DNA of 64,000 bases from a virus. The translations under genes were made by a program, and so were the position numbers. Location: positions 62,001 through 126,000 of IMG/VR virus record IMGVR_UViG_3300004463_000226, one strand, 5' to 3'. The notes under the pieces are model-generated. The model searched no databases. It worked only from the letters and a program-made list of their open reading frames with translations, and was not told the origin of the DNA. Every line of letters starts with the position of its first letter. The stretch's first letter is position 1. This document shows positions 12,701 through 32,306 of this stretch, in pieces.

Positions 12701-15700
12701 ATCTATTAAGATAATCTATGGTATTGGAGTTACCTTCGAAGAGGGTTTCAAGAAAATAAAAGATAGTGTAGATAAAATGCTAGATCCATTGAAAAAAGGC
12801 TGGGATAAATTTAGTGGAGATATGAAAAAGATTGGTACTGAAGTTGCTGATCGTACGAAAAAAACTTGGGATGCTATGTCGAAAGATGCTAGTGAAACAT
12901 GGGACAAAACCAAGAAAGCAGCAAGCCTTGTCGGTAAAGCAATATCCATCGCAGCTAAGGAAAAATGGGAAAACCTCAAGAAAGATGTAGGTGATAAATG
13001 GGATAAAACTAAAACAGCAGTTAACACAGTAGTAAAATTAATACCAGGTTTAACTAAAACAGCATGGAATAAAACAAAAGATAAAGTTAAAGATGGATGG
13101 GAAGATGTTAAGAGTGCTGCTGTTGGAGTTATAAAACTTCTCCCTAAAAGTACACAGGATAAATTGTCTGAAACAGGCAAGAAACTTGAATCTGGATGGG
13201 ATGATGTTAAGACAACTGTAACTTTGGCAGGTAATACTATTAAAGTTGCATCTGGTAAGATATGGGATAAGATCGCCCAATCTACTTCTGAGGGGTGGGA
13301 AAACCTTAAGGAAGATATAGGTAAAGGTATAGATAAAATGAAAGAAAAGATTAGTGAAGGAGTCGCAGCATTAAAAGAACCTTTTACTGATCTTGGAGGT
13401 AAATTAAAGAAAAAAGCCGAAGAAGCATTAGAGAAACTTGGCTTCGGTAATGGTGTGGGTAGTTATGGAATGGGTAAACCTAAACAGAATGCTATTCGAA
13501 ACTCTGCACAGGTAAAACAAGCAGATGAGGATACTTCTGAATGGGGAGCTGGTAAAGTTAAACCTACAACCCTAAATGGTATGACATATTACTCACAAAA
13601 TGATTCTAGATGGTCAGGTAAGTCATTGACTAGCGGTGCAGGAGCTCCATCATTTGGAGATGCTGGTTGCGGTCCTACCGCAGCGGCTATGGTACTATCT
13701 TCTGTTACAGGTCAAACAGTTACACCTACAGATACACTTAGAATGGCACAAGAAGGTGGGTACGTTGACCGTGAAAAAGGAACAAGTTCGGCAATGTTCA
13801 CTGATGTGGGTTCGAAGTTTGGTGTACCTATTGTACCGTATGCTAATAATCCTAGTACTTTAAAAGAAGACTTATCTAAAAATCGTCCTGTAATTCTTCG
13901 TGGACAAGGCGGAAAAGCATTTACTAATGCTGGTCACTTTGTTGTAGCTACAGGATTAGATTCAAAAGGAAATGTACTTGTAAATGATCCTATTAGTAAA
14001 AACAGAAGTCGTGCATATAAGGCTGAAGAATTATTACAAAACACAACAAGCTCTTATGTAGCATATCCTGAATTAAGCCCGTATGCAAAACAATTCGGAG
14101 CTGGTAAGATAGGAGATAAGGCAACTGTTGAATTTGCTAGAGGAAAAGGTACAGTTGATGCTGTTATCGCTGAAGCAAAAACATGGTTAGGAGTTCCTTA
14201 TGTATTTGGTGGTACTACTAAACGAGGAGTTGACTGTTCTGGATTTACTCAGGCAGTGTTCCGAGATGCAGGTGGTATTAACCTTCCACGTACAGCTGCA
14301 CAACAAGCAACAGTAGGTGTACGTATAAGTGATAATGATATCCAGCCTGGAGATTTAGTATTCTTTGCTAACACATACAAACCTGGTATTTCACACGTTG
14401 GTATTGCTCTAGGTGGTGGTAAATTTATTGGTGCTAACGGTAATAACGTTAATATCGCAGATTATACCACAGGATACAATAAGGCACACTATAGTCACGC
14501 CCGTCGTTATAATTTACAAGGTGCTGGTTCAGGTAGCTCAAGCCCTGCTCCTACTACATCAAGTGATTCATCATCTAGTTCAGGAACATCAGCTGTAGCT
14601 ACAGCTGCTAAGGCTCTAACTGGCGCAGCATTATGGTTATGGAAACAAGATAAAGCAACTGAGACTTTCGAAACTATCACATCCAATGCTTTAACTGGAC
14701 GTCGTGATAAGGTTGACTGGACAATTCCTACTGAAGGTGGAGATGTAGCATCATCAACTGGTTCAGCCGCAGAAAGTGCAGGATCTTCTACACCAAGTAG
14801 TGGAGGATTCAATATCGATGGGTTTATTCCTAAAAATACTCAGGACGCTATTCTAAAGAAAACTGCTGAGTTAACAGCAATGAACGAAACAAATGGTAAC
14901 TACACATATGGTAAAAACGACTTCCGTGCAGGCGGAGGAAGGATTTCTCCATCAGTAGGTGTCATTCAGTGGCGTGGAAATTACGTTAGAAGCATGATGC
15001 AACAAATGCATCAGAAATTACCAAATGACCCGCGTGCAGCATATTATGCTAATCAAGTAAACTGGAATAACGATTCTCCTTGGAGCACAGGGCAGCAAAA
15101 TGATCTTGAGAAATATCTGAAAGATAACTATGCTGTAACCAAAGCAGTACAAGATGGAATGTTATTAAACCATGTTAGAGATGTCAACTTGTCTCAAGTT
15201 TACAAGCATGGTGTTGCAACAGGTAAGATTAAGAATCCATCAAGTATCGTTATGTTAGGTGAATTCGCGCAGACAGGACCAGGTAATGTTAAACCATTTA
15301 TGAATTCATTCTCTGGTGACCCTAATAGTTTCCCTCACTTTGTGAATGAATTTAGATCAGGTAAGAGCTTCTGGGGACGTCATTTAGGCATATACAATGG
15401 TCGTGTTCAGAAAGATATTAACGCATTATCTAACTGGAGTCCTGAAACAGGTAAAGGTTTTGGTAATGAAACTTCTAAAGAAGAAACTGGTTTTGGAAAC
15501 AAAGTTAAGGCAGTGTTTGGACGTGGTCCAGCATGTAACATAAAACCTTCAACAGGATTTGGTAGCAGAATCAAGAATATGTTTGGAAAAGGTTTAGATC
15601 GTGCAAAATCTTTGATTAATGTATTTGGATCTGGTGCTAAGGATGAGGTTAAAGTTACTAAATATAACGGTAAAATAATAGGAGATCAACCAACTTTCGC

Positions 15701-16166
15701 TAAAGGTTACTCTCCAGGGGAAACAGAAACAGACGTCCCTGAAGTAACAAAATCTGCTATTACTGCTATTGAGAACAGTGCATCTAGACCTACAGCTAGA
15801 GTAACTAGAACTAAGTATCCTGAATCATATGGTAAAGGATTCACTGACTCTTACATGGTTCAACAGCAGACTAAAGCTATAGTGGAAGGTAATAAAGATG
15901 CTTCTATTATTAAGCAAGCACTTGAGTTGTTAGGAGAGATTGCATACAACACTAGAACTACATCTGAAGGAATTAATCATTTATCGTCTAAACCAGCTTT
16001 CAATCAGGTAGTAACATCATCTAATGATAGAGGGAATACAACGGTGAATAGTAATTCTCAGTATAATTCCAATCCTGTCCTAGGAGCTATGCAAGGATCA
16101 CAGCCATCAGCAAAAAGTCAGAAAGATTACAATACAGCGAAAGCAATAGCTGGTGGTAGAATCTAA
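3747..16166 (+). CDS. Giant tail tape-measure protein with C39, NlpC/P60 and lysozyme-like domains
   Basis: At 4139 residues this is far longer than typical tape measures. Residues 1712-1745 show the HASGIDNVPxDxYxxxLHxGEMVVPA-type motif typical of tape measures. Residues about 1025-1250 hold three hydrophobic Gly-rich repeats, each with PGG(P/L)I and ending in a phenylalanine-rich FGE motif. A long Gly/Pro-rich linker (about 2345-2620) and Trp-spaced helical repeats (about 3000-3190) follow. Near the C-terminus lie a C39-like peptidase (C3308 in GCGPTAAAM, H3397), an NlpC/P60 domain (C3497 in DCSGF, H3550) and a lysozyme-like domain around E3714. The protein would set tail length and open the cell wall during DNA entry. 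At about 1.5 angstrom per helical residue it could span roughly 600 nm if fully extended. SH3 and baseplate genes follow. Confidence 0.93.
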   Translation: MATKKGSIHKSNPAQLNWFKNVAKSLGYTTTELVTSIAPSMGEFISENTDYTKELYNDLRQSKSANKKLSNLFGTTAQMGIAKDALKNAIEDIKSGKIYNKERQEAMYDVDMDDIDLDDSFGMSEFSFDDKGGDKGSTVEVDDASKKNELPSITIKNIQPPISPNNPMVKAVQQQTSATLNAAQANINAQTSIAASQSSMTHRIGTGTLNGLQAVNDNLSLLVNFQNDSMAKYVGASLKYYEDSLKAMSDTLAELKRANNPPEQEKKEKGKDPVDNVFLSYGGLNFKGYVDQVKKNFERQFSENMFLQPIKMMFEDTDTLKSIAASPLSFISTKIVTTLIPQMLQQSMQNLDKSFSSFFPALIMKINKMATSSSNPFIQILGEIFGAASRSKSSVDLSRYNRGQIPFDGETKKSIVEVIPGYLRKILAALDGKEEVAYDLNTGTWKTVSKMKDEFDSLQKMYTLNPFMGTIDTLKQRSEAFQFKNVEDRRKFNEGIEQFFINMSKNGNPVNPFVKRDKDGLSRDEMAETFDFDGNKGMQKIFRELILSLSKSEQIKVLGGKDIISSRKNVRNFMEKAEEDPTLHNANLLFNEMGFDGHMRTDKATKEKKLKKGFGLFNPVDKFNLSSLDYLRSIKTILLQGLRVFPVTDLGNRGPSIRRGQKMRGHNALDPEITNIIERYEKERNYMLDEVRRKKKEENNKKKATNGTVSLTPEEIAALPGQGQVLLENTQDASRMSREDLANRIQAHQDYKKTLPEKDNQKKDITQWLGKFFKGDNQERFNLLREKVNGLLRKPAELLRSVFDKIDNSMYDIVFGVPGEEGHKSFFESTLNRLSEKFEGMGVWIKTKVFEPIKDSLIGEDGIITKMKNSEFFQSLKANTKKFGDWMFGKPDGKGVRRDGLLANTGNNILDMWDAAKYYFTGKGYVNRAGIKFEDNDESVLRQAKTIFKNFSKDLKHYLVGDKKATDEDNKRGVLSGILGGLKQGFVNFKDAIFGPSDRAKKNGETTFKELAESFKKKAPKALAWGTVGAGLGTGVAMAGGMGLLGSIFLPGGPIGAALLGTSLGFLSQSDRFMNWAFGEKNANNERIGGVISKGTQDWFKKNRAYLIGGAMIGALKPILGVGLLPSFLLPGGPIAGALFGVGTAMLVRSEGFQNFMFGEKDADGKRTGGFLSRSYSKIRGKMTNKDGNNLLGNMGAGAIGGAGIAAVIGKMGFLGAMLTPGGLIGGAVLGAAAGIALSSDRWKKALFGEWDDKTGLRKGGLLGKFTNWFGLEVMHPLGNQLKQINLNFQKWFTEKISNPFTDAINPMKQAFKNMTTDLSDFFKKGWDGFKEKIGEVFEKNVGQPFGQFMKEKVMDPLKGFLSKIIMGVGKIFAPIAEAPVKILSSFAQGFRKNQEKRGLNKHIEDGWEEITDFKGRRERGERLGIKGFFKKLNEMYFDKEARDNARFGEHGASYAREDDAKITERNKRQQDKFAKRQAEIDAERERLDKHRKLGLRYDYDNFDDKGRDISRIYNILKSRSGYKHFMKKDGAGDQLQRDIGQHLGVNLMDLLQVKDRDSFNPAVLTKGQKAIIRKALKSGRTGSSLLSLFGIKLPKNETPEKPAGDEVKSSVESMADKVTEAIKNASPIDAIKDTLVPVVRETNNKLSEIASKIGEVLGINSRRFKSKKSGDTSNIPPQDGGERNIVIRSPKHLPKVLKFNRKKNDDDLPSHASGIDNVPHDNYIANLHQGEMVVPAKQANEIREANGQPKEKESTVTGPIDNTNRLVNHMLPSSSMPKNRDGILRRIATDVRTIAREVYGQLDGVGSNIYKMRKLLQQSNGVSDEDLTGSANRDRVGFWGHLKRAIYKPFDFIRDKVTQVVGNVLDKVRKFGGAIVNVAKTVVMIPVDIVKNIGKGLWAATKSIGNMLLSAGKEFVKLPGKLIGVVGSAVEAVGHAVKALGPALGKVVEGAAGLVSGAAKGLGNVLSGVGKGIGSFAHNLGKSLGDVVGVIGTTTVKLVGSVGNLVSTSLQSLVKVGESLLSSAGKLIAGTTKMLVDFSLNTVQAVGNTLKTVGKTILDVVTSPLKFIAGAVGKLFGIDQREVTVKGGHLDSVGEVHIIRDAPTVGTNDYSGIIHAIKEGFHSLLPLPVYVVNEHHDGGNPDGGPSGHHSGGRTPSPGGGGRRPRIGSSIRSAFGRTRAGRAVSAVSNGMRGVRSAISGGLAGGMKASLMGTFKGFINRRKSNINIEDKLTKMNILPGANGNIIPFPQPGKAMGALGSIVNSVFGTMALPNIYGGGLISEKKVDVSGQAPVRDINHETSVREEKSEKAAVAGFRVANIGLLSMIESNTRRAADDLDWIVGWLKKFKFPEQKCCPMIIPPLGGGGSGGFFGGSPGGAGGAATATGSGAGSGAGTNSTGSAGTGGNGGMFIGQPNKEKTKSTPPGTKGGKPIPEVTKPAGPVVAPVIPMSPNDPKKPATPGQKPGTLVPLPNTKPEVEKPAAKGKNGEVIKFEPKTPNTPNEHQQPLPKVAGGDTYYPPVLDDNNKNKPGGNNGPTMSHGGNNSNGSGDNVYRFPGSNNDDGGDYPSSDGGNSRRGGGSGNGGNNGGSDGGDNTPKPKKRGIFDRIKGAFKKTPNNVEKFPTGGKGGKFGAIKNVVGGLLGLFKKSDIPDNVVDMNGKPKGSGKPTKGADVIDMFGGDSSSPKEKGGLLSKLKGMFSKSPKPDNVIEMPNQKPSLFSKLGGMFSRGGGQAAAAGASKAAGGGLIRGALRGAGGLLGSIPGMNLLMGGVGGMMAYNRTGNIFGTEDPTAGQKTAAAIGGTAIGLIPGVSLVDAVTGGSISNVAAKATYGIGTGIGKAYTAITDGTAGKAIAKGTKATGKWISEKSQQAGSAIAKGASAVGGAIATGASNAGQWIGDKAQQAGNAIANSKFGQAVGGAAQGIANGAKSFWNNSAIGGAVNGFRASNEQVMQNFGVKGDPSKVTTGMKVANGMAEGLEKLSGGKFDAEKSIKIIYGIGVTFEEGFKKIKDSVDKMLDPLKKGWDKFSGDMKKIGTEVADRTKKTWDAMSKDASETWDKTKKAASLVGKAISIAAKEKWENLKKDVGDKWDKTKTAVNTVVKLIPGLTKTAWNKTKDKVKDGWEDVKSAAVGVIKLLPKSTQDKLSETGKKLESGWDDVKTTVTLAGNTIKVASGKIWDKIAQSTSEGWENLKEDIGKGIDKMKEKISEGVAALKEPFTDLGGKLKKKAEEALEKLGFGNGVGSYGMGKPKQNAIRNSAQVKQADEDTSEWGAGKVKPTTLNGMTYYSQNDSRWSGKSLTSGAGAPSFGDAGCGPTAAAMVLSSVTGQTVTPTDTLRMAQEGGYVDREKGTSSAMFTDVGSKFGVPIVPYANNPSTLKEDLSKNRPVILRGQGGKAFTNAGHFVVATGLDSKGNVLVNDPISKNRSRAYKAEELLQNTTSSYVAYPELSPYAKQFGAGKIGDKATVEFARGKGTVDAVIAEAKTWLGVPYVFGGTTKRGVDCSGFTQAVFRDAGGINLPRTAAQQATVGVRISDNDIQPGDLVFFANTYKPGISHVGIALGGGKFIGANGNNVNIADYTTGYNKAHYSHARRYNLQGAGSGSSSPAPTTSSDSSSSSGTSAVATAAKALTGAALWLWKQDKATETFETITSNALTGRRDKVDWTIPTEGGDVASSTGSAAESAGSSTPSSGGFNIDGFIPKNTQDAILKKTAELTAMNETNGNYTYGKNDFRAGGGRISPSVGVIQWRGNYVRSMMQQMHQKLPNDPRAAYYANQVNWNNDSPWSTGQQNDLEKYLKDNYAVTKAVQDGMLLNHVRDVNLSQVYKHGVATGKIKNPSSIVMLGEFAQTGPGNVKPFMNSFSGDPNSFPHFVNEFRSGKSFWGRHLGIYNGRVQKDINALSNWSPETGKGFGNETSKEETGFGNKVKAVFGRGPACNIKPSTGFGSRIKNMFGKGLDRAKSLINVFGSGAKDEVKVTKYNGKIIGDQPTFAKGYSPGETETDVPEVTKSAITAIENSASRPTARVTRTKYPESYGKGFTDSYMVQQQTKAIVEGNKDASIIKQALELLGEIAYNTRTTSEGINHLSSKPAFNQVVTSSNDRGNTTVNSNSQYNSNPVLGAMQGSQPSAKSQKDYNTAKAIAGGRI

Positions 16167-19019: not shown

Positions 19020-20150
19020 TTAGTTTAGTAATTGATGAGAAATCTTACGAATAGAATCATGTGTATAGTTTTCTAATTGAATAGTATGAGCAAGCTCCAT
19101 TAATGTATATTTAGTAATAGATTCTGCTAAAATCAAGTCCATATCAATATCAGATTGCACTGTACCATGAGATTTGGACTCCGAACCTAACTTACTGTCT
19201 TCTTCAAACTCATCGACAGTTGTATCATGTTCTTGAGCATCAACATCATAGTCATCGGAAACATCATCATCATCATTTGCATTATCCACACTAACCATTG
19301 CAAGGGCAGACTCAACTACTTCTTTAAAAGAATGACGGAATAATGAGTTAAATAATGTAGACTCCTCAACAGGAACATCTTTAATGATTGCCTGTCTAAT
19401 GGATTCCTGTACAGATTTGTCATCAGATTCTCCATTTTCAGTAGCTTCACTTTCTAGGTCTTGATATATCTCATCTTCTTTAGCTTGACGAGCCTTTTCA
19501 TCCTGCACAACAGTTAAGACTTTATTCTTAACCATGGAAGAAAGCTTCTCAATGCTGATCTTTTCCTTGTCATAGTTTAACTCATCTTTCTCATCATCAC
19601 ATAGTTCAAACTTGATAGCTGAAACGTCTAATTGACCTTCTTTAGCATCAGCCATCTTACGACGAGCTACCTTATTAGCTGTTGATTCACACACAGTTTT
19701 GATAATTTTTAAGAATGGTGACTTAGAAACTCGGTAAGCATTTTCTAATAATGCATATCCACCCTTACCATCTACATATGAGTCTACTAATGTACGCAAG
19801 TTTGTTTCTTGAGCAATGACGAAGTCTTCGTCAAGTACTAAAGATCCAGCAAACATTTCAAACAAAATATCCTTGAATACAATAGTCCGTCCTTCTTTAT
19901 TGATTTCATTAATCAAGTTAGGAATCTGAGACTCAAGAAGTTTTTTAGTATAAATATTATTCATAGCTTCTCTGTGTTCAGATTCTTTTTCAGAACGTTC
20001 CATACTTCTATCAATATCATTATAGTGCTCCAAAAGAGCTCTTTTCTGAAGATATTGATTGGCTGCAACACTAGATGTGATATTGCTATGTTCGGAGACC
20101 TTTGAAATCCCGAATGAATGACGTTGAACTTTACTGTTACCATTGAACAT
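19020..20150 (-). CDS. Acidic hypothetical protein, 376 aa, in the baseplate operon
   Basis: Residues 55-95 are helical and amphipathic. The region from about 235 to 345 is extremely acidic, including a run of Asp near residue 295. No enzyme motif is visible. It is the last gene of a minus-strand operon after the SH3 baseplate protein and the wedge protein, with 53 bases between it and the latter. An assembly chaperone or scaffold is possible from composition and context, but no family is recognised. Confidence 0.65.
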   Translation of the reverse strand: MFNGNSKVQRHSFGISKVSEHSNITSSVAANQYLQKRALLEHYNDIDRSMERSEKESEHREAMNNIYTKKLLESQIPNLINEINKEGRTIVFKDILFEMFAGSLVLDEDFVIAQETNLRTLVDSYVDGKGGYALLENAYRVSKSPFLKIIKTVCESTANKVARRKMADAKEGQLDVSAIKFELCDDEKDELNYDKEKISIEKLSSMVKNKVLTVVQDEKARQAKEDEIYQDLESEATENGESDDKSVQESIRQAIIKDVPVEESTLFNSLFRHSFKEVVESALAMVSVDNANDDDDVSDDYDVDAQEHDTTVDEFEEDSKLGSESKSHGTVQSDIDMDLILAESITKYTLMELAHTIQLENYTHDSIRKISHQLLN

Positions 20151-20203: not shown

Positions 20204-22855
20204 TTAATTACGTATGATCTCTATATTAATATCATCTAATCCGATCGTTAAGTACTCAGGAACATAATTGCGTCGGTCTAATTTAGATAATGTATTTAAA
20301 TCGACACCTATATTTTGAATAACTTGGATAGATGAATCATACGCATTAATGTTAATAAATTGAAGATACTCAACATCCTTGAAGTTATTTCTGATTTCTC
20401 CAATTAGGTTAGATATATAAATAGCATTATATCCTTTGTTATTAATACCTTCAATGTATTCTTTAATGAATATACGTAAATCACGAATCAAGATTTCCTC
20501 AATGACACCAACAGCAGGAGAGACTTTAAAATGAATTCTAACATTCGTTTGATCCAATCTAGTACCGACAGTGTCGATAACAAAGTTTTTAGATTTACCG
20601 AATGTGTTATAGAACTTTAGATCTAGTCCATAGTTATTACTTATTTTATCTATGGCTCCTAGTAGGTAATTGTATTGAGCATACATCAGACCTAAGAAGT
20701 AATTAAATTTATCTAAGTCTTTTAACGATTTAGCTCCGACTAGAGGAGAATAAGCTAGTGCCATATAATAATCCTCTACCATTACCCCACCACCACTATC
20801 TCTCATATATGGAACGTATTTAACACTTGTTCTCATAATGTCAATAGGGGTGATGAAATTAACTTTTGTTGCTTCAGTAGTATACGTATTAGTCAATGTA
20901 TACTCTGCATAATCAGGTAAGATGTCAAACTGATGACCTATTTTTAAAAGATCATATTTAAAAAAGGCATGTATATTAACTTTACAGTTGTACATAGGAA
21001 TCAACCTTGTTTCAACATGTCCGTCATCAGGATTTTTAACATCAATAGCTCGGAAGCTTTCACCTGCCATATAATCATCAGTTTTGATAGTGGTCTCATA
21101 CGTATATACATTAGATAGACTATCGTATGATTTAAACTGGAACTCCTTATAGCAAGCTTGTACGCCAGAATCTTCTATTGATAACATTACCTTTAATCTT
21201 CCAGTAGGTACTCCAGAACCATCAAGGATAGGGCTGTCTAACTGGGAAGTAGGAATAAGATTAATGGTCATCACATAAGTGTCTTCACCGATTAATGCAT
21301 TACGTTTAATATCAAGACTGTTACAAATAAATTGATTATAAGAGTCTCCGTTTACATAACTGTAGTCAAGAGGTATCTTACTTTGAACTGAGTTCAAATA
21401 GAAACCTACGATAGTTGGATTCTTCCTGACAGTAATCAAGAATGGATTTGTGTATACGAATGGTTCGTTGAGTACATCTATATCATCCTGAACTGTTTTA
21501 CCAGTTATCAATTGGACTGTATCAACAGCATCTTGTTTATACTTAAATAGATGTCCAGCTTTTAATATATACTGATTCGCTTGCTCATATTCAATATCGA
21601 AATCTTCTTTGAGCAGATCAATATTTACAGTATTGGTAGGATAATAGTCATTATTATAGTCCATAAACAATGAGAACGCTGAGAATATACGGTCTATAGC
21701 ATCATCACGTTTCTTAACAAATAGAACCCTGTTATTATCTCTACGTTCATAGTTTGAGAAATACAACTGGAGGTCATTTTCAATATTATATGCACCAGAA
21801 GTAGAGCTCTTTTCAATAACCTTTTCACGGATATCTTCTAATGTAAGTTGATTACCTCCATTTGAACTTGATCCCTGTGTAATGGCAAATATGATAATGC
21901 CTTTGTTGTACTCATAAACCTGTGAGCTTGGTATAACTGTTATATTACTACCTGTATATTCAGGAAAGTTACCATTTTCCCCTTTTGTAGTATATATTTT
22001 AATTAAGACCTCTGAATTAAATTCTGGCTGAAAGTAGTTATCTCTCATAGTGAAAGTAATTTCAACCTTGTTAGTATCTTTCATTTTGTAATAACAGAAC
22101 GGTTGTTTAGATGGAATAGATCCATACATCAACTTCTGTAATTGAGTATAATCTTGTGCACCAGGAGCTTTGTATAGAACGTCAAATCCAGCCAATTGAT
22201 CAACGAAATCAAATGAAATTGTCGGTAGGTTGATTTTATCATTATTAATGATAGCTTCTGTTTTTCTGAATTTATTAAACTGGTGCATCTCTACAACGAT
22301 ACCTAGATACTTAGATCCATTCTGAGTAATACGAGTAGTCTTTAGATATGGATTAGTAATAGAACTCATAGAGTTTTTGTAGCTAGTATCGTATTGAGCT
22401 GTATAGATATAATCAGTAGCGTATTGTTTTGCTGTGATTATGATATCATAATCTAACATGAATTGCTTACCTTCAATGTCCATGATTAAATCAGAATCTA
22501 ATATAAATTCTGTAACCACACCATTATTAATACCACGATTAATAATATCCCTTTCATTTATAAAGAGTACTGCGACTAATGATGCTGGGCGGGCAAAAAT
22601 ATCACCAATATCTAAACCAGCAGCATAGCTATAGATTGTCTCAGGGATTTGAGCTTGGTTAGGAAACATTTCACGAACGAATGTTGATATAGCATTAAAA
22701 GTATCTTCTGTAGCTGTGGCTGTGATCTCTGTATTATAGCCCAACAACCCAACATTTGACTGGTTAGTAATCTCCATATCAAAGTACTTAGGAGCCACAT
22801 CATTTATGACAAAGTCTTTTACTGAGTATATACTAGTATAATCCTTTGAAGCCAT
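20204..22855 (-). CDS. Baseplate wedge protein, gp6/J-like
   Basis: 883 residues. The C-terminus has the baseplate J/gp6 pattern: a segment with VIEEILIRDLRIFI, a helix ending in a short GYNAIYISNLIG stretch, then KDVEYLQFININ, matching the family signature of paired helices and strands that join neighbouring wedges. The N-terminal 150 residues also fit, with an early helix reading NAISTFVREMFP. In T4 this protein forms the ring that holds the baseplate together and switches on contraction. It lies 13 bases downstream of the SH3 baseplate gene. The family call rests on pattern, not on a search. Confidence 0.65.
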   Translation of the reverse strand: MASKDYTSIYSVKDFVINDVAPKYFDMEITNQSNVGLLGYNTEITATATEDTFNAISTFVREMFPNQAQIPETIYSYAAGLDIGDIFARPASLVAVLFINERDIINRGINNGVVTEFILDSDLIMDIEGKQFMLDYDIIITAKQYATDYIYTAQYDTSYKNSMSSITNPYLKTTRITQNGSKYLGIVVEMHQFNKFRKTEAIINNDKINLPTISFDFVDQLAGFDVLYKAPGAQDYTQLQKLMYGSIPSKQPFCYYKMKDTNKVEITFTMRDNYFQPEFNSEVLIKIYTTKGENGNFPEYTGSNITVIPSSQVYEYNKGIIIFAITQGSSSNGGNQLTLEDIREKVIEKSSTSGAYNIENDLQLYFSNYERRDNNRVLFVKKRDDAIDRIFSAFSLFMDYNNDYYPTNTVNIDLLKEDFDIEYEQANQYILKAGHLFKYKQDAVDTVQLITGKTVQDDIDVLNEPFVYTNPFLITVRKNPTIVGFYLNSVQSKIPLDYSYVNGDSYNQFICNSLDIKRNALIGEDTYVMTINLIPTSQLDSPILDGSGVPTGRLKVMLSIEDSGVQACYKEFQFKSYDSLSNVYTYETTIKTDDYMAGESFRAIDVKNPDDGHVETRLIPMYNCKVNIHAFFKYDLLKIGHQFDILPDYAEYTLTNTYTTEATKVNFITPIDIMRTSVKYVPYMRDSGGGVMVEDYYMALAYSPLVGAKSLKDLDKFNYFLGLMYAQYNYLLGAIDKISNNYGLDLKFYNTFGKSKNFVIDTVGTRLDQTNVRIHFKVSPAVGVIEEILIRDLRIFIKEYIEGINNKGYNAIYISNLIGEIRNNFKDVEYLQFININAYDSSIQVIQNIGVDLNTLSKLDRRNYVPEYLTIGLDDINIEIIRN

Positions 22856-22868
22856 TTATTATCACCTC

Positions 22869-24458
22869 TTAATCTCTGAATTTTAATTTGTATAAGTGTG
22901 ACCCATCCTCTTGCTTAATGGACTGAACAAATGGAGCGCCACTTAAAGTTCTACCTGTACCCGTTACTACTGGATCATAAATTCTTCTATAAATATATGA
23001 ACCATTACTATTCATATTGAACTCAGATAGTGTTAATGGACTGAAGTCTTCTTTCATTGCATACATGTAGTTGATACCGAAACTAGGTGACCCTGCACCT
23101 GTACTTCCTTTACCCCAACTACTTGCACTTGCAGGAGTATTTAATGGGAACACTCCAAAATACTTAGCCCAGAATAATATAGTTTCTCCATCTTCAGCGC
23201 ATATGAAATAGTACACGCTTGAGGCATAATCAAGAATCTTATTCTTTATATTTAACTTTGTAGGTCTGGCTGTTCCACGATAAACCCTAGAAATATATTC
23301 TGTCCAAAGCTTGTGCGTTTTATAAACAGAATACTCATTGTCATCAATAAATTGAATTGTAAATTGACCTGCTGTATTGGACTCAATGTTATGTCGTCCA
23401 TATACTAATTTATATCCAGTAAATGTCTCTCCATGCTCTACTGTCTTAATAATCTCATCAGGTACATCAAATGATAATGCCGAGTTAGACAAGTATGGAT
23501 GGAAGCTATGACTAGCCGATAAATTATCTGTCAGAGATCTTACAACATTCGGGTTACTGTGCCAGAAATGATACATTTGTGAATCATTCTCAAACTGCGG
23601 ATGTAACGCTCCCTTAGCCATAAGGTTAAGGCTAGGTCTTGTGAAGAAAACATATGAGAATGTTTTCGTTAAATGGTGCTGGGGAAATGCTAATTTAAAA
23701 CGATTAAATCTAGTAAATAAGTCATCCCTAATATGAGGTGTCTCACCTATTATATTATAATTCTTCCGAATTATATTAAGGTTAGCCTCGACAAATTCAT
23801 AATCAAGGGTATAATCTGATACAAACATATCATCCTCAGCAAACGCCGATTCTAATTTACTAGGATCAATTTCAGTAAGCTGTTCTGTTGTTGATGTAGC
23901 TTGTTTTGCACCAAGATCTTGATATGTTAGATCTTGTATCCTATCCTCAGTTGATTTACCTGAATTATTTAAGATCTTATCAATCTCACTATAATCAGGA
24001 ATACCATTTGATACACCACTCTCGCTAATATCCTGCTCCAACACCCAGCCAGGAACACCTTCAAGACGATATGCTCTTTTAGATCGACCCAACACCCATT
24101 CTTTAACTTCTAATATCTTATGCCGTGTACCAAGCAATGCCTTGTCTATAGCTGCACCTTCAGCATAGTTTGTTGCAGTAGTCTTTATTGTTACTACATT
24201 TCCTACATTAAGAGCTTTACCATTTGTGGGTGGTTTATACTGAGATGGAGGTTGTGGGTCAAGGTTCTGTAAGAGTTTAATATAAGTCTCTATAGACCAA
24301 CCACCTTTTGCATCAATATAGTACCAACCATTTTGTTGCTTAGATGAAGTATATTGCTCGTTAACTCGGACTTGTGAAACGATCCTGTGACTTGTCCCAG
24401 GACCAGAACGTACGTTAAGAACATCACAGTTAACTATCATGATCTTAAATTTACCCAT
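22869..24458 (-). CDS. SH3-domain baseplate protein, paralog of the one at 16236
   Basis: 529 residues. Residues 1-63 are an SH3 domain nearly parallel to that at 16236 (LNVRSGPGTSHRIV, TSSKQ, WYYID). Residues about 88-150 look like a second SH3-type domain (IKTTATNYAEGAAI ... PGWVLEQDI). The remainder has YVFFTRPSLNLM and LDYASSVYYFI segments resembling tail-tube-associated baseplate proteins. It is the first gene of a three-gene minus-strand operon with the wedge protein. A structural role at the tail tip is inferred; cell-wall binding is a reasonable guess for the SH3 parts. Confidence 0.7.
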   Translation of the reverse strand: MGKFKIMIVNCDVLNVRSGPGTSHRIVSQVRVNEQYTSSKQQNGWYYIDAKGGWSIETYIKLLQNLDPQPPSQYKPPTNGKALNVGNVVTIKTTATNYAEGAAIDKALLGTRHKILEVKEWVLGRSKRAYRLEGVPGWVLEQDISESGVSNGIPDYSEIDKILNNSGKSTEDRIQDLTYQDLGAKQATSTTEQLTEIDPSKLESAFAEDDMFVSDYTLDYEFVEANLNIIRKNYNIIGETPHIRDDLFTRFNRFKLAFPQHHLTKTFSYVFFTRPSLNLMAKGALHPQFENDSQMYHFWHSNPNVVRSLTDNLSASHSFHPYLSNSALSFDVPDEIIKTVEHGETFTGYKLVYGRHNIESNTAGQFTIQFIDDNEYSVYKTHKLWTEYISRVYRGTARPTKLNIKNKILDYASSVYYFICAEDGETILFWAKYFGVFPLNTPASASSWGKGSTGAGSPSFGINYMYAMKEDFSPLTLSEFNMNSNGSYIYRRIYDPVVTGTGRTLSGAPFVQSIKQEDGSHLYKLKFRD

Positions 24459-24974: not shown

Positions 24975-26618
24975 ATGGGTGTTCTCCGTGAAATCCTTGA
25001 TACTATCAGAGATTTATCTACGATGCAAAAGGGATCTATGGAAGATGTATTTAAGAAAAAGAAATACTCTTCTATATCCAAGAGAAGTCAAGAGGGTACG
25101 TTACAATTTCCAGTCATTGTATCAAAATCTTTAGATATTGATACAATTCAAATGATGACAAAGGCATTAGAACGTCAATATGCTTCATTCGTTCAGGTTA
25201 CATTAACAATGAACCCTGTTCTTAATTTAAGTGAAGACGTTAATGCTGCTGGATATCTTCGTAAATTTCATCAGAACTCTGGAACTAAAGCAGGTTTTCA
25301 TGACATTGGTAACATGGTTAAAGATGTTCTTAATGAAAACTATGTTGGGTTTGCTGATGACGTTGAACAGAAGTTCCTATTTGCTGCTGTATACGAAGGA
25401 TCAACTTCTAAAATAATTGCTTCTAATAAAGAGCAGTTACAAAGTATTCTTGAAGGGGTCAAGGAAGATATTCTTAACAACAAGTTTGTTCCTAAGGACC
25501 CTATCTATCGTTTTAAAAATGATAACCTAAATTATCACCATAACAGAATTGTTACTGAAGCAAAGGGTAGAGCTAGTGGAAGTGGTACTAGCATTAAGTA
25601 CGATGGTGATAATAGATCACAATCATATCAGGGTGATGATAAAAGACAATATGATAATAGAACATCGTATCTTGCTGGATCAACTCATGATCAACGTACA
25701 GAATATCTTGCTGGATCCACTCATGATTCTCGAAGAGAATATAAAACAGAGTATCAAAACGGTTCAAATCATGATCAGCGCGAACACTATGACTCTAGTG
25801 GTGGAACACAGAAAATTAATAACTCTAAAAATACCATCACTAAAGCTGGTAATGATGTCAACCAAACATTTACAGGAGAAATCCGAAACTTAACTCTTTC
25901 TGGTGGCGGTGGTATGAAGTTACCTGAAAAATCAAAACATGAGCTTCCTAACAATATCCTCAAGGATAACGATGCTAAGAAAGCCAATGAATTGGTTCCT
26001 ACTGTTATGCATGTTCGCACAATCCTTGTTGATAAAGAAGGCGTTAATCAAGGAAGCATGGATTTCCTTATTGGTATTAAAGCTACAATGCACCCTGTTG
26101 CATCTGAGGAAATGGTATCTAACGTATTGAACTCTGTTAAAAGTAAAAGCAGATTCTTTAATACTATTCGTTGGACAAGTGGTGAAATTAGCTTCTTTAA
26201 AGATTTCTTATTCAATGTTAAGGAAATCAAAAATGATGTTGCTGAACGTAGTGCTGGTTCTTCAGCTTGGTGGATGGCTCTTAAACGTCGTCGGGCATTA
26301 TCTAAAATGAAATCAGCCATGATGTTACCAAATCAAATTCTTCCTAATGCATCAATTGTTATGTCTATGGAAGAAGTTGAGTACATTAAATCTGAATATG
26401 GATATGATTTAATGAATCCTCTATTTACAGGCAAAATTATGAATACATTCTTCTTACTAGGCTTCGCTGTAGTAGATAATTCTACTCAAGTTGCTCACTT
26501 CTTATTTGATGGACAAATTGACTTCCAATCTGTATCGTTCACAGGATTAGAGCGTGACAACAAAAGCGGTGGTGGATCTGATATTAAAGATGTTCTTAAG
26601 CTTGTACAACGAGTATAA
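24975..26618 (+). CDS. Putative virion protein with 12-residue repeats, 547 aa
   Basis: Residues 1-200 and 315-547 look globular. They flank a low-complexity segment (about 210-275) with repeats of (T/S)(E/S)YLAGSTHDxR at a 12-residue period, then a degenerate YQNGSNHDQR copy. The repeats are also near-identical in DNA, beginning at 25668 and 25704. A Gly-rich turn precedes the second domain. It starts a five- to six-gene plus-strand virion-like block and is followed 25 bases later by a membrane-segment protein. No family is recognised; the structural role is inferred from neighbours. Confidence 0.6.
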   Translation: MGVLREILDTIRDLSTMQKGSMEDVFKKKKYSSISKRSQEGTLQFPVIVSKSLDIDTIQMMTKALERQYASFVQVTLTMNPVLNLSEDVNAAGYLRKFHQNSGTKAGFHDIGNMVKDVLNENYVGFADDVEQKFLFAAVYEGSTSKIIASNKEQLQSILEGVKEDILNNKFVPKDPIYRFKNDNLNYHHNRIVTEAKGRASGSGTSIKYDGDNRSQSYQGDDKRQYDNRTSYLAGSTHDQRTEYLAGSTHDSRREYKTEYQNGSNHDQREHYDSSGGTQKINNSKNTITKAGNDVNQTFTGEIRNLTLSGGGGMKLPEKSKHELPNNILKDNDAKKANELVPTVMHVRTILVDKEGVNQGSMDFLIGIKATMHPVASEEMVSNVLNSVKSKSRFFNTIRWTSGEISFFKDFLFNVKEIKNDVAERSAGSSAWWMALKRRRALSKMKSAMMLPNQILPNASIVMSMEEVEYIKSEYGYDLMNPLFTGKIMNTFFLLGFAVVDNSTQVAHFLFDGQIDFQSVSFTGLERDNKSGGGSDIKDVLKLVQRV

Positions 26619-26643: not shown

Positions 26644-27630
26644 ATGAAACCGAATTATGCCTTTAAAATCTTATTAGAGAATGCAAGAACGTTCTCTGAT
26701 AGAAATAAAATTACTGCACTTATGGAAAACGAAGTGCAATCAGTTAATAATGCAATGGTATCTAACTTCTACAAGTCTGCATTAGAGAAAGCTCATGTAG
26801 ATTTTGAAGATATCCCTAATAGTAAAGGGGATATTACACGTTACTCTGGATATCAATCTATGGCTGAAACTCTTGATCTTATTGAGCAAATCGCTGATAA
26901 AAATAACGTCAAGATTGCTGAGATTGAAGTTATCAAAGATGCTATTAAAAACATCGCAACATATCGTGAGTCATTTGAAAAAGGATTTAGACTTGAAAAA
27001 GAGTTTATCATCCTTCAATACAATACATTGGTATATGCCTGCGTTGAAGCAACATCTATTATGATTTCTTCATATGTAGATTTTGTAAAGCGTCCTGATA
27101 GAAATGAATTTACTATTGTCAGAGACCATATTCATGGTTCTCATACATCTGTACAGAACCTAGAGAAGTTTAACTTAGCTGTTAAGCAAGGAGAATTTTC
27201 TAAAGTTTTGAATGCTGTTATCACAACAGGTGGAGATAACCTTGTTGGTATTGATGATTTAGTTGTTCCAACACTCATTATGGGTGGGGTATTAATCCTA
27301 GTTCCATTAATCCGTGAATTGATTTTTGGATTCTATTATTCTCGTATGAGAGTATCTGATTACTTAGCTCATCAGGCTACATTGCTTGAGATTAATAAAC
27401 AATCCGTCCAAGCATCTAATATGCCTGCTAAGCAGAAAAATGAAGTAATCAAAAAACAAGCACATCAAATTCAAAAGCTACGCAAAATGTCTGATACTAT
27501 CCGTGTTGATAAATCTATGGCAGATAGCAAAGCTACAGTCGAATTGAATAAAGAAAATAAAGGTTGGACTATTGATGAAGTTAAGTCTCAAGCAGCTTCA
27601 ACCGACTCAAATGGTTTCCAATTACTATAA
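26644..27630 (+). CDS. Putative virion-associated protein with one membrane segment, 328 aa
   Basis: The protein is mostly helical and carries a single long hydrophobic stretch at about residues 208-232 (LIMGGVLILVPLI), followed by a charged coiled-coil-like tail rich in Gln and Lys. It is preceded by an AAAGGGGTG ribosome site and probably shares a message with the gene before it. It could be a membrane-interacting or ejected protein, but no family is recognised. Confidence 0.55.
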   Translation: MKPNYAFKILLENARTFSDRNKITALMENEVQSVNNAMVSNFYKSALEKAHVDFEDIPNSKGDITRYSGYQSMAETLDLIEQIADKNNVKIAEIEVIKDAIKNIATYRESFEKGFRLEKEFIILQYNTLVYACVEATSIMISSYVDFVKRPDRNEFTIVRDHIHGSHTSVQNLEKFNLAVKQGEFSKVLNAVITTGGDNLVGIDDLVVPTLIMGGVLILVPLIRELIFGFYYSRMRVSDYLAHQATLLEINKQSVQASNMPAKQKNEVIKKQAHQIQKLRKMSDTIRVDKSMADSKATVELNKENKGWTIDEVKSQAASTDSNGFQLL

Positions 27631-27762: not shown

Positions 27763-28911
27763 ATGAGTATTTTTGGTGGATCTAAATCTACTTCTACTGC
27801 TGTACCAGCAACTCAGATTCCTGTCTATGAAGGATATGACCAAGAGGTTAACGGCGATATCATCGCTCTTCAAGAAAGCTTGGAGGACCAGATGGCTATC
27901 ATTGAAGCAATTCACACTCTTGACATGGAAGAGATTGCTTTACGCAGCGATGTTAAGGTAATGGAGGCAAGCGGCTCTTCTGAAGCTGAAATTGCATCTC
28001 GTTACCAAGATTACTCCGTTGTTACAGAAAGCATGGTTAAGAATGCTTGGGATAAAATCAAGAAATTCTTTGCTAAGCTTTGGGGTAAAATTAAAGCTTT
28101 CTTCAAATCTGCTGTTCAAATGTTTGACAGCCTTTGGATGAGCTCTAAAAAATTTATTGAAAAATATGAAGGCGAATTAAAGCGCCGCGATCTTACTGGC
28201 TTCAAATACAAAATGTTCGTTTACAAGAACATTGATGGTGCGAAGTTCATGGATATGAAAGTTCCTCAAGAAGCAAATAAACTTCTTGAAACTGCTAAAG
28301 TTATCGCTGAGTCTCGTGAACAAATGAGCCCTGGTGCGGCTGGCGCAGAAGGAGCTACAAAAGGACAACGTAACCAACGTCTATATGATGAGGTTGCTAA
28401 ACTTAAAGAACAAAAAGAAGAAATGCTTGATGCATATCGTCGCCAATGTGTTGAAGGACTAGGCGCTGGTTCAGGATCTTTGAGTGCATCTCAATTTGAT
28501 AAAGTATTGTATGCTGGTTTCCGTAACGGTGCATATGGTAAAGATGCAATGAAAGAAGAGCCAGTTACTATCTCTCAAATCATTGAAGATATCAAATCTG
28601 CTGGTGACGGTAAAGCAAAAGCTGAAGCATTCTCTAAAACTGTTGATGAGGAATTTAGCCGCATCATCAAAGAAATGGAACAGCTTGAATCTAAATCTAA
28701 AGAATCTGGTGTAGAGAAGAAAGACGGCTATGACGCTAAGCATAATGAGAAAGTTATCTCTGCTGCTCAAGGTTACGCTTCTCTATTCAGTGGCTATAAG
28801 GATATTCACCTTACAGTATTCCGTGCTTGGAAAACAGCTTTTGCTGAACGTAACACAGCTTACAAACAATGTGCTGCTGCGGCTTTACGTTACAAGCCTA
28901 AAAAAGACTAA
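27763..28911 (+). CDS. Tandem virion paralog 1, with candidate prohead-protease site
   Basis: The 382-residue protein is the first of four related genes. It starts MSIFGGS like the next one. The first 89 residues are acidic and end in VVTE|S, then comes an amphipathic basic helix (KNAWDKIKKFFAKLWGKIK). T4 prohead protease gp21 cuts after LxE/IxE-type sites, and the other three paralogs have a similar site at the same place. This suggests an N-terminal capsid-targeting piece removed on maturation, as in T4 internal proteins. Frequent GGC, CGC and TTC codons suggest high expression. Function after cleavage is unknown. Confidence 0.7.
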   Translation: MSIFGGSKSTSTAVPATQIPVYEGYDQEVNGDIIALQESLEDQMAIIEAIHTLDMEEIALRSDVKVMEASGSSEAEIASRYQDYSVVTESMVKNAWDKIKKFFAKLWGKIKAFFKSAVQMFDSLWMSSKKFIEKYEGELKRRDLTGFKYKMFVYKNIDGAKFMDMKVPQEANKLLETAKVIAESREQMSPGAAGAEGATKGQRNQRLYDEVAKLKEQKEEMLDAYRRQCVEGLGAGSGSLSASQFDKVLYAGFRNGAYGKDAMKEEPVTISQIIEDIKSAGDGKAKAEAFSKTVDEEFSRIIKEMEQLESKSKESGVEKKDGYDAKHNEKVISAAQGYASLFSGYKDIHLTVFRAWKTAFAERNTAYKQCAAAALRYKPKKD

Positions 28912-28947
28912 TATAAACTTTACCTTATAAAAAGGAGGATAATGCAC

Positions 28948-30024
28948 ATGTCTATTTTCGGTGGTTCTAGAACACAAACTACTCCAGTAGTTGAAGCATA
29001 TGACGGTTTCGTAGGTGATGATTTAGCAGGCATGCAGACTATCGTTCATGAAGCTGCTCAAGACCTATTCCGTCTTCGCGCAGGGATGTATATCTCTGAT
29101 ATCATTATGGAAGAGCAAGTCCTTGAAGGACTTTCTACTCCAGAAGTGCTTATGGAAGGTTTCGTTAAAGATTCCTTCGGTAAGCTTAAAAATGCCGTTA
29201 TGAAGTTATGGGCTAAGGTTAAAGCTTGGTTTGCTAAAGCTAAGAAAAACCTTATCATCTTCTTCACATCTGGTGAAAAATTCATCAACAAATTCAAAAC
29301 AGAAATCGAAGGTAAAGCTTCTGGCGGATTCCGCTATGAAGGCTACCATTACGATATGTCTGCTGGTGATTCAGCAGTTAAACATGCTGAAGATGTATTT
29401 GAAAAAGTCGTTGACTTAAATGCAAATACTATCGACAGCCAACATGGTGACCTAACTAATGAAGGTAACCATAAAGAGAAATTCAATATCTCTGAAGAAA
29501 AAACTGACCACATCAAAAAAGCGGGCGCTGATGACATGAGCACATTGCTTAAAAACATCGCTAAAGCATACCGCAAGGATAAAGTTAGTAAAGATTCTTT
29601 CAAAGACTTTAACGGTAACTCCAAAGGCGAATTAATCGGCTTTGTTGCTAACGGTAAACAACAAATTAAAGATCTTGAAAACTACCAAAAGATGCTTGAT
29701 GACCGCTTTGAGCGTGTAACATCTGCAATCGACCGTGCAAAAGCTAAAATCCAAGGTGCTGAGGCAACTAGTGATGAAGCTGAAACATCAAAACGCGGAA
29801 AAGCTGTGAGCTATGCTCAACATAAAGTTGAAATGGCTCAATTCGGATTATCTTCCCTTACACAGCTCATTTCTGCTAAAATCGATATCCGTAAGGAAGC
29901 AGCTAAAGAAGCTGAAAAAGTACTTAAATCTTTCCTTCATTACAAAGAGCCTGTTAAAGAGAGCTTTGGTGGTTATGAAGGTACTGGGGAATCCGTACTT
30001 GAAGCAGCAATGCGCCATATCTAA
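28948..30024 (+). CDS. Tandem virion paralog 2, with candidate prohead-protease site
   Basis: 358 residues from the ATG at 28948. The ATG at 28942 is only three bases from the AGGAGG site and is less likely. It shares the MSIFGGS start with paralog 1. VLE|G at residue 60 and VLME|G at residue 70 are followed by FVKDSFGKLKNAVMKLW, the same amphipathic basic helix. It has high-expression codon use. A VLE|A word also occurs near the C-terminus. It probably makes an internal-head or core protein, inferred from the processing-like sites. Confidence 0.7.
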   Translation: MSIFGGSRTQTTPVVEAYDGFVGDDLAGMQTIVHEAAQDLFRLRAGMYISDIIMEEQVLEGLSTPEVLMEGFVKDSFGKLKNAVMKLWAKVKAWFAKAKKNLIIFFTSGEKFINKFKTEIEGKASGGFRYEGYHYDMSAGDSAVKHAEDVFEKVVDLNANTIDSQHGDLTNEGNHKEKFNISEEKTDHIKKAGADDMSTLLKNIAKAYRKDKVSKDSFKDFNGNSKGELIGFVANGKQQIKDLENYQKMLDDRFERVTSAIDRAKAKIQGAEATSDEAETSKRGKAVSYAQHKVEMAQFGLSSLTQLISAKIDIRKEAAKEAEKVLKSFLHYKEPVKESFGGYEGTGESVLEAAMRHI

Positions 30025-30033
30025 TTAACACAA

Positions 30034-30067
30034 ATATACTAGATGACCTCATAGTCATCTAGTATAT
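30034..30067 (+). terminator. Hairpin terminator between paralogs 2 and 3
   Basis: A 14-bp perfect stem (ATATACTAGATGAC and its complement) with a CTCATA loop and a T6 tail separates the two strongly expressed paralogs from the two less biased ones. Confidence 0.9.
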
Positions 30068-30117
30068 TTTTTGCGTCATAAACAAATTAGTAAGAGTATA
30101 AGTAAAGGAGTGGAAAT

Positions 30118-31200
30118 ATGTTAATAGGTAATGTATTTACAAACAAACCTACCTCTAATAGTGTAACTAAACTAAGCTATGAAAGTGCTGATTTTGATTA
30201 CACAAACAGACTGTTAGAACAGAACCTCTGGATGGAAGACTCTTATTTCAATATTGTCCGTGAGCATATGATGGTTACACATCTAGCCTTAAAGGATGAT
30301 AATGTAGATATTCTTCAAGAGGGATTTTCTGACTTTATGAGGTCTGCTGGAGAGTTCTTTAAAAATCTTCTAGAGAAGTTTAAAGAATTCATGTCAAGAG
30401 TATTCATGTACATCTATGCTTATATGGGAAATTTCGAGAAGTTTCTCATGAAGTATAAAGATAAGTTACATTCATTGAATCCTGATTTTAATATCAGTGG
30501 ATATGATTATAGCTTTAGTACGGGTGTACCAAATCTTGAAAAAGTTAAGCATATTGTAATGGATTACAACAATCAGCTTAATGAAGTTCAAAAACAAACT
30601 AAGCGTGATATAGTAGCTACTCGCGCCGAGGTATTATCTGCTGATAGAATGAACAGTATTAGATCCTATACACTTGGTCAAGCAACACCTATATCTAAGG
30701 AAGAATTCTTATCAGCATCTAAGAAATCTTATCGCAATGGAGCGTCATCCACTACAGATAAGCATATTGATAAATCTCGTTTAATTCGAGCTATTGATGA
30801 TTATCCCAATATCAAAAAGCTCAAGAAAGAGTGTGAGAAAGAAAAGAATGATGTTATTGATTTGATTGAAAGCCTTAAGGATTTCTTCAATAAAAGTACA
30901 TCTGTTCATTATAAAGGTGAGAATAAAACAATTTATGTTAACAGTGCAGAATTAAATGCTGATGGTACTGCTGTTAATAAAGGAACTCAGACTGAGCTTA
31001 ATTATAGTATTGATCGTGTAGAAATTATCAATCTATTCTACAATATAAAGTTTGCTGAAGCCAAAGAAATCGGAGCTATTGCTACTACGGCAATTACTGA
31101 GAAGGTAAATGCTCTAAAAGAGTATTTGAAGTTTACTCAAGACATCATCCGTGAATCTTTAGGTTTCAAAGAATCACCACAAGAAGGAGGTACTAAGTGA
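30118..31200 (+). CDS. Tandem virion paralog 3, with candidate prohead-protease site
   Basis: 360 residues. It keeps the layout of paralogs 1 and 2 with little identity: an acidic N-terminal part, ILQE|G at residue 68, an amphipathic helix (FMRSAGEFFKNLLEKFKEF), then a globular body starting with a GYDY motif comparable to GYHY in paralog 2. Codon use is ordinary. Its stop overlaps the next gene's ATG (TGATG), so the two are translationally coupled. Confidence 0.65.
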   Translation: MLIGNVFTNKPTSNSVTKLSYESADFDYTNRLLEQNLWMEDSYFNIVREHMMVTHLALKDDNVDILQEGFSDFMRSAGEFFKNLLEKFKEFMSRVFMYIYAYMGNFEKFLMKYKDKLHSLNPDFNISGYDYSFSTGVPNLEKVKHIVMDYNNQLNEVQKQTKRDIVATRAEVLSADRMNSIRSYTLGQATPISKEEFLSASKKSYRNGASSTTDKHIDKSRLIRAIDDYPNIKKLKKECEKEKNDVIDLIESLKDFFNKSTSVHYKGENKTIYVNSAELNADGTAVNKGTQTELNYSIDRVEIINLFYNIKFAEAKEIGAIATTAITEKVNALKEYLKFTQDIIRESLGFKESPQEGGTK

Positions 31201-32306
31201 TGACAGATTATACTATTCCTACACTGGAATTTCATCTGCGCTTAAATACGTCTATGCATGAAATTCTATTTGAACAAATGGAAGCAGAGTCAGAGTTTAT
31301 TCTTTCTTGTTTGGAGAATATGCAGATTGTTACTGAAGCGGAAGTTCAAGACAAGAAATCTAAACAAGGTATCTTCCAGAGAATCATCAACTTTATCAAG
31401 AAACTATTTACATCATTTGCTGATAAAGCCAAGTTAATTGAACAGGCTAATAGAAAATGGATGGATGAAAATCTAGCAAAGTTAGATAATATTAACTTTG
31501 ACGGTCTTGAAATTGAAATGGTTCCGTTCTGGATAATGAATAGCGCTGGCTCTAAACGAGGTAGAGAAGAAGGAACTAAAATTGCAAATTCTCTAGGATC
31601 TGCAATGAAAAAAGGTAAGTATAAGGATATGGATCTATTAAAGAAAGATTATCTCAGTAACTACATGAAAGAAGGAGACTTCACTGCTGGGATAAAAAAC
31701 TATCTTCGTTATGGTAGTGCTAATGGAGATAAACCTGTTAAATTAGTAGGTCGGGACTTAAAGAAGAAAGTTTTAGGTGAAATGCGACCATATTGTGACA
31801 AGTATAAAAACGAAGCTGCTGAAGCTATCAAAGGCATGTCTGAAGCCATAAATAAAATTGCTAGTGCGGTAGATAAAGAAGTCGATCGTCGTGAGCTGAA
31901 GCCTACAAGTGAAAGCTTCTGTATGATTGAGGGAATGCCTTATAATAAGACTGAACTTATCTACTGTGAGAACTTTATTGTTATGGAAGCTGATGAAGGT
32001 AAGAAAGAAGATACTACAGGTAAATTAGTTGATAATACTTCTAATAAAGAAGTAGAAGAAAGAAAAGCAGCTACAGATGTCGGTATACGCGACCATGGAT
32101 CTAAGCAAGCAGCTAAGTTAGTAGGTAATGCTGAAAAAGCAAATGATGATGTTCTAATAGCTACTAAGAATGCTCTTCAAATCATGCAAACTATAGCAGC
32201 TGCTCAAATGACAGTTGCCGAAGAAGCATATCATGCATACTTAAGTGCTATTAAGCAGATTGTATCTGCCAGAGGACCTAAATCTTCTTCTGAAGAAAAT
32301 AAATAA
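31200..32306 (+). CDS. Tandem virion paralog 4, with candidate prohead-protease site
   Basis: 368 residues from the ATG at 31200, nine to ten bases after an AGGAGG site. The GTG at 31197 overlaps the upstream stop. IVTE|A at residue 46 precedes a basic amphipathic helix (IFQRIINFIKKLFTSF). It has the shortest N-terminal piece of the four. The C-terminal half is Lys/Glu/Ala-rich and helical. Grouping with paralogs 1-3 rests on layout and the cleavage-like word. Confidence 0.6.
   Translation: MTDYTIPTLEFHLRLNTSMHEILFEQMEAESEFILSCLENMQIVTEAEVQDKKSKQGIFQRIINFIKKLFTSFADKAKLIEQANRKWMDENLAKLDNINFDGLEIEMVPFWIMNSAGSKRGREEGTKIANSLGSAMKKGKYKDMDLLKKDYLSNYMKEGDFTAGIKNYLRYGSANGDKPVKLVGRDLKKKVLGEMRPYCDKYKNEAAEAIKGMSEAINKIASAVDKEVDRRELKPTSESFCMIEGMPYNKTELIYCENFIVMEADEGKKEDTTGKLVDNTSNKEVEERKAATDVGIRDHGSKQAAKLVGNAEKANDDVLIATKNALQIMQTIAAAQMTVAEEAYHAYLSAIKQIVSARGPKSSSEENK

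Follow-up and report, generated by a model that had tools for sequence, protein, structure and literature searches.

A four-gene array in a relative of Bacillus phages AR9 and PBS1 probably encodes processed internal head proteins

What is made by the four tandem genes at positions 27763-32306 of the window, the 64,000-nt stretch analysed here (positions 62001-126000 of a 234,335-bp jumbo-phage record)? A sequence-only reading had described their products as virion-like paralogs, each with an apparent prohead-protease site, and proposed a new set of internal-head or ejected proteins. GC content is 34%, and many of the phage's proteins match those of Bacillus phage AR9, among them two multisubunit RNA polymerase gene sets, terminase, capsid protein, protease and tape measure. 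The nearest named phages found were AR9, PBS1 and BpSp (Takahashivirus), most of the virion genes showing ~25-35% protein identity. The phage is a jumbo phage related to AR9 and PBS1.

Four diverged paralogs

All four open reading frames are present as first described, and all lie on the plus strand. W1 (27763..28911), the first of the internal-head-like paralogs, encodes 382 aa, with a predicted leader of residues 1-89 and a predicted mature part of residues 90-382 (33.1 kDa, pI 9.4). W2 (28942..30024) encodes 360 aa, or 358 from its second ATG (predicted leader 1-72; mature part 73-360, 32.2 kDa, pI 9.0), and W3 (30118..31200) also encodes 360 aa (predicted leader 1-68; mature part 69-360, 33.5 kDa, pI 8.8). 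W4 (31197..32306), whose start overlaps the W3 stop, encodes 369 aa from a GTG with the next ATG at 31200 (predicted leader 1-47; mature part 48-369, 36.0 kDa, pI 8.8). The leaders, of 47-89 residues, are acidic (pI 4.1-4.6) and end in aliphatic-x-E; the mature parts have pI 8.8-9.4.

Paralogy was borne out by profiles built from orthologs only, which replaced iterated profiles whose mutual matches of 99.8-100% among W1-W4 we dropped as circular. HHalign probabilities were 99.7% for W1-W2, 97.9% for W1-W3, 97.8% for W2-W3 and 95.1% for W1-W4, the last over 140 columns; the same profiles gave no direct match between W2 and W4 or between W3 and W4. These sequence comparisons join W1, W2 and W3 firmly, and W4, the most divergent, by way of W1. 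In BLASTP, W1 and W2 share 30.6% identity (E 4e-15). W3 is nearest to AR9 gp215 and BpSp Gp272 (BLASTP to AR9_215, E 1e-5) and matches phrog_26049, a virion structural protein, with E 9.5e-5. When W1 and W3 were compared by tblastn with 50,697 phage records, no meaningful match appeared, so the relationship is visible only through profile, position and fold.

We collected 35 related loci from IMG/VR using the neighbouring gp213-like protein as bait, so the array itself played no part in their selection. Complete loci among them mostly have ~2-6 genes in a run at the array position, bordered by a gp214-like gene and often by a minus-strand gp217-like gene. One of them has both W1 and W2 genes, with sites AVLE↓A and PLVE↓N (arrows mark predicted cuts). 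At the same locus in Staphylococcus phage PB50 (L109:11662-14119) there are three short genes, and IVTE↓A or FVLE↓S together with a basic amphipathic helix occurs in two of the three; the inner-body locus seems to extend to Staphylococcus jumbo phages. Fusobacterium phage genes at the locus gave no match to the array profiles.

Predicted cleavage sites and the prohead protease

The four proposed sites, VVTE↓S (E89), VLME↓G (E70), ILQE↓G (E68) and IVTE↓A (E46), are correctly numbered, where E70 of W2 is counted from the second ATG (E72 from the first) and E46 of W4 from the next ATG (E47 from the GTG); most orthologs start at these second possible start codons. The predicted P1 codons lie on the plus strand at 28027..28029 (W1 E89), 29155..29157 (W2 E72), 30319..30321 (W3 E68) and 31335..31337 (W4 E47). 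When 88 array proteins from related phages are aligned, just two columns come out as nearly invariant, Met1 and W1 E89. All W1 orthologs have xVxE or xLxE↓[SGA]; W2 orthologs mostly have xLLE, with aliphatic-x-E in 7/7; W3 orthologs have ILxE or IIxE↓[GS], and W4 orthologs xVxE or xLxE↓[ASE], the site being kept in 7/7 for each.

How much weight can the motif bear? The strict form [VI][VIL]xE[SGA] occurs twice per protein in W1-W4 against 0.13-0.18 expected from shuffled sequences, and W1 has six [VIL]xE[SGA] sites against 1.6 expected from shuffling, a test that is partly circular as the motif was drawn in part from these very sites. As a control, nine neighbouring proteins (~4,230 aa) contain four conserved aliphatic-x-E[SGA] columns, against seven in W1-W4 (1,471 aa). 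Because the neighbours also have such columns, the motif by itself proves nothing, and the case rests on three things: its constant placement before a helix, the protease and the capsid protein. One further protein in the window, of 376 aa (19020-20150, minus strand), has aliphatic-x-E[SGA] at E73 and E343, conserved in eight genomes.

The helix proposed to follow each site, amphipathic and basic, is amphipathic in all four proteins. Its basic character is clear for W1, W2 and W4, but W3 has a net charge of only +1 over its first 40 mature residues. Structure models of W1 (pLDDT 82.4, pTM 0.80) and W3 (pLDDT 79.9, pTM 0.78) are both mainly helical. The AlphaFold model of W1 places E89 within a continuous helix (residues 74-141), so the site must unwind, or the cut must precede folding.

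That position within a helix would also suit proteins that are never cut: head or tail structural proteins, tape-measure-like for example, in which the Glu is conserved because it helps the helix start to fold. The conserved aliphatic-x-E columns of other proteins fit such a reading too, as does a weak match of W1 to a tape-measure family (phrog_28, E 1e-3). Against it, the ortholog groups keep an aliphatic P3 and a small P1' along with the Glu, and the motif is found in the capsid protein as well. A distinct homologue of the AR9 tape measure lies at 3747-16166; for this reason, and because the helical matches are weak, we rejected a tape-measure identity for the array. The homologue has 4,139 aa against 1,925 aa in AR9, a difference that points to a tail of much greater length or to an extra domain.

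Fusions of W3- and W4-like proteins bear on the same point. In at least two related loci, homologues of W3 and W4 form one protein of 907 aa (L032:17019-19742) or 740 aa (L037:14141-16363), and two less certain cases lie at L049:14853-17222 and L040:14265-16754; all are possible head polyproteins. Each fusion retains aliphatic-x-E↓[GD] directly before the second amphipathic helix (VVTE↓G at E394 in L037; YITE↓G at E463 is another example). A site at this inner junction would be needless unless the junction were cut, a further hint of real cleavage and a further point against uncleaved structural proteins, which we regard as extremely unlikely. Processing after the conserved Glu is the reading we prefer.

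T4 gp21 cuts after aliphatic-x-E (LxE/IxE-type) sites, and the sequence-only reading had proposed looking for a matching protease elsewhere in the genome. We found one: a 278-aa prohead protease of S77/S80 type at genome positions 155059-155895 on the minus strand. It scores 32.4 bits against PF03420 (Peptidase_S77, T4 gp21; cut-off 27) and 30.8 bits against PF20034 (Peptidase_S80, phiKZ gp175; cut-off 23.4), and its H83, S143 and D170 are kept in 22/22 proteases, phiKZ gp175 among them. The protease itself has LIME↓A close to the N-terminus and a second such site, ILTE↓G (E253), close to the C-terminus; by analogy, the second brings to mind SPN3US gp245, which undergoes C-terminal autocleavage.

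In the capsid protein, IVKE↓S at E104 aligns with ILQE↓S of AR9 and is kept in 8/8 close homologues; the array motif thus stands at the point expected for removal of a capsid leader, a likely mature N-terminus whose assignment relies solely on conservation among relatives. We dropped an attempt to place the SPN3US capsid cut ATE-130 on this protein, as the alignment was unreliable. A 737-aa portal candidate lacks the strict motif that would mark an SPN3US-like portal leader. Between the protease and capsid genes, two genes (genome 155990-157869; L011:11990-13869) contain VVSE↓S, ILTE↓G and IILE↓A, the second encoding a very acidic protein of 220 aa; both are candidate scaffold/core substrates of the protease.

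There is a second alternative for the array itself. W1-W4 might belong to the scaffold or core and, like T4 gp22, be degraded by the protease and lost from the head, leaving no mature form. Acidic leaders and adjoining head genes agree with this, and so do multiple conserved aliphatic-x-E sites: besides the predicted sites W1 E89, W2 E72 and W4 E47, possible extra cuts on the plus strand include W1 E48 within the leader (IIE↓A, 27904..27906), W2 E354 near the C-terminus (SVLE↓A, 30001..30003) and W4 E264 between the core and C-terminal helices (IVME↓A, 31986..31988), each kept in 7/7 orthologs. Beyond the first site, however, the mature parts of 290-320 residues have few more conserved sites. 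The fate of counterparts in other phages, given below, also speaks against this alternative.

Gene order, fold and relatives

The array lies in a conserved gene order. The order and strands (-, -, +, +, array) are those of phiKZ gp87, gp88, gp89, gp90 and gp92-gp96 and of SPN3US gp48-gp54, and AR9 and BpSp have the same gene order at the locus. On the minus strand are an AR9 gp211-like gene (20204..22855; counterpart of SPN3US gp48 and phiKZ gp87), with an HHalign probability of 97.1% to SPN3US gp48, and a divergently transcribed AR9 gp212-like virion gene (22869..24458; phrog_21400, E 1.1e-46), with 96.7% and 95.4% to phiKZ gp88 and SPN3US gp49. On the plus strand, an AR9 gp213-like and phiKZ gp89-like virion gene (24975..26618; phrog_23804, E 3.6e-42; 91.4% to phiKZ gp89) marks the cluster start, followed by an AR9 gp214-like virion gene (26644..27630; phrog_23545, E 1.4e-30) at the position of phiKZ gp90 and SPN3US gp51. 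Profile comparison thus supports three of the four flanking proteins (HHalign 91-97%); the fourth, the 328-aa gp214-like protein, gave no HHalign profile match to phiKZ gp90 or SPN3US gp51. The gp213-like protein has IVTE↓A at E195, a site not kept in its orthologs, followed by a low-complexity linker with repeat units such as EYLAGSTHDQRTEYLAGSTHDSR.

Family searches point the same way at borderline scores. The best-ranking Pfam family is PF12699 (phiKZ_IP): W1 reaches 25.1 bits (E 1.2e-5), just below the curated 27-bit cut-off, W2-W4 had no PF12699 match in the Pfam search, and 13/88 array members match at E<=0.01 (best E 4e-6). Direct HHalign comparison with single phiKZ proteins was insignificant, and with SPN3US gp54 it gave only 49.9%; residues 94-179 of the W1 profile align with gp54 138-228. 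In BFVD, W1 matches virion proteins of 201phi2-1, PhiEaH1 and Psa21 and an "internal head protein" of ctLnO19, and W3 matches mostly phiKZ-like jumbo-phage proteins together with AR9 proteins. These matches, mostly to phiKZ-like virion or internal-head proteins, have E-values of 1e-5 to 1e-2 and modest TM-scores (about 0.2-0.65, mostly 0.23-0.54), and all-helical folds match readily. Searches of the PDB by fold and sequence returned only coiled coils and designed bundles, with no solved relative. According to a published comparison, AR9 and BpSp have few homologs of the essential and structural proteins of SPN3US that are easy to detect (PMC5105663).

The direct relatives of the array are AR9 gp215/gp216 and BpSp Gp272/Gp273, which share its locus and match its profiles; they differ in having only two genes there and, in gp215 and Gp272, a long acidic C-terminal tail. 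AR9 gp215 carries a virion-protein annotation, and BpSp Gp272 was detected in mature virions by mass spectrometry with 11 peptides and 31% coverage (PMC4870245). Outside the cluster, AR9 gp095 (NC_031039 79052-79858, minus strand), an annotated virion structural protein, matches an array profile with E 7e-7, a placement like that of phiKZ gp162/gp163.

A close likeness in kind is to the SPN3US ejection proteins gp53 and gp54, two paralogs at the same cluster position that are cut after Glu, with an acidic leader, a basic mature part of ~30 kDa and a mature helix (GWKETLKDLFER / SLWDDIKAFLQR) of the same kind as the array's. Their mature N-termini were determined by mass spectrometry as (E)GWKETLKDLFER and (E)SLWDDIK (PMC10052503). 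They differ from the array in their A-x-E motif, in leaders of 125 and 137 residues, and in being two rather than four. In phiKZ, the inner-body proteins gp93, gp94, gp95, gp162 and gp163 (PF12699) and the cluster gp89-gp97 also include tandem, highly diverged paralogs of variable number at the same position, the protease is of the same family, and gp93-gp95, read from their sequences, also have a leader ending in x-E and then a helix (SLE↓D, SQE↓E, STE↓D). The published P3 for phiKZ prohead cleavage is S, A or G (S/A/G-x-E; PMC10449902); the array, unlike phiKZ, has V, I or L at P3, nearer to T4 specificity, its leaders look shorter, and we identified no equivalent of gp97.

T4 itself offers a mechanistic analogy: IPI-IPIII and Alt have an N-terminal leader that is cut after aliphatic-x-E by the S77 protease gp21, and are then ejected. 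Their leaders have 10-20 residues and they are not an array of this fold; no sequence relation was seen, and no homologue of T4 internal proteins was found among the Pfam or PHROG matches of the array.

In both phiKZ and SPN3US, genes at the array position include processed internal-head proteins that persist in the head. This persistence, together with Gp272 in BpSp virions and the annotation of AR9 gp215, argues against degraded scaffold proteins, a reading that we consider very unlikely. Gene order, the sub-threshold PF12699 match, the detection of orthologs in virions and, at modest TM-scores, fold comparison all support the internal-head reading and its phiKZ inner-body analogy. We conclude that W1-W4 are highly likely to be processed internal head proteins of the phiKZ inner-body type, in a divergent form belonging to relatives of AR9 and PBS1. 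The set first proposed as new is therefore upheld as a set and not as a novelty: it is rather a divergent set of a known kind.

Proposed maturation and significance

We suggest that W1-W4 are made as precursors, and that the acidic leader would bring each into the prohead core. The S77/S80-type protease that the phage itself encodes would then cut after the Glu of aliphatic-x-E, yielding a basic, mostly helical protein of 32-36 kDa with an amphipathic helix at its start, which may be retained in the head with the DNA. An acidic leader on a basic mature part fits this scheme, the leader steering to the prohead core and the mature protein staying with DNA. Since phiKZ delivers gp93, gp94, gp95 and gp163 into its host by injection (PMC10449902), ejection of W1-W4 is, by analogy, also rather likely.

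Our literature search found no inner body credited to AR9/PBS1-like jumbo phages. We would give about an even chance to the broader proposal that these phages build an inner body from a locally duplicated, fast-diverging array; that their protease is specific for aliphatic-x-E and not S/A/G-x-E; and that in several lineages the W3-W4 pair is made as a polyprotein and split by the prohead protease in the head.

Few parts of giant phages are as poorly understood as their inner-body and ejected proteins, and most work on these has been done in phiKZ and SPN3US, phages of Gram-negative hosts. A probable processed cluster in the AR9/PBS1 group gives this locus a testable function across many jumbo phages, and cuts predicted to the residue define exact peptides for mass spectrometry of AR9, PBS1 and the Staphylococcus jumbo phages. 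It further suggests an origin of processed internal proteins before the two phage groups split.
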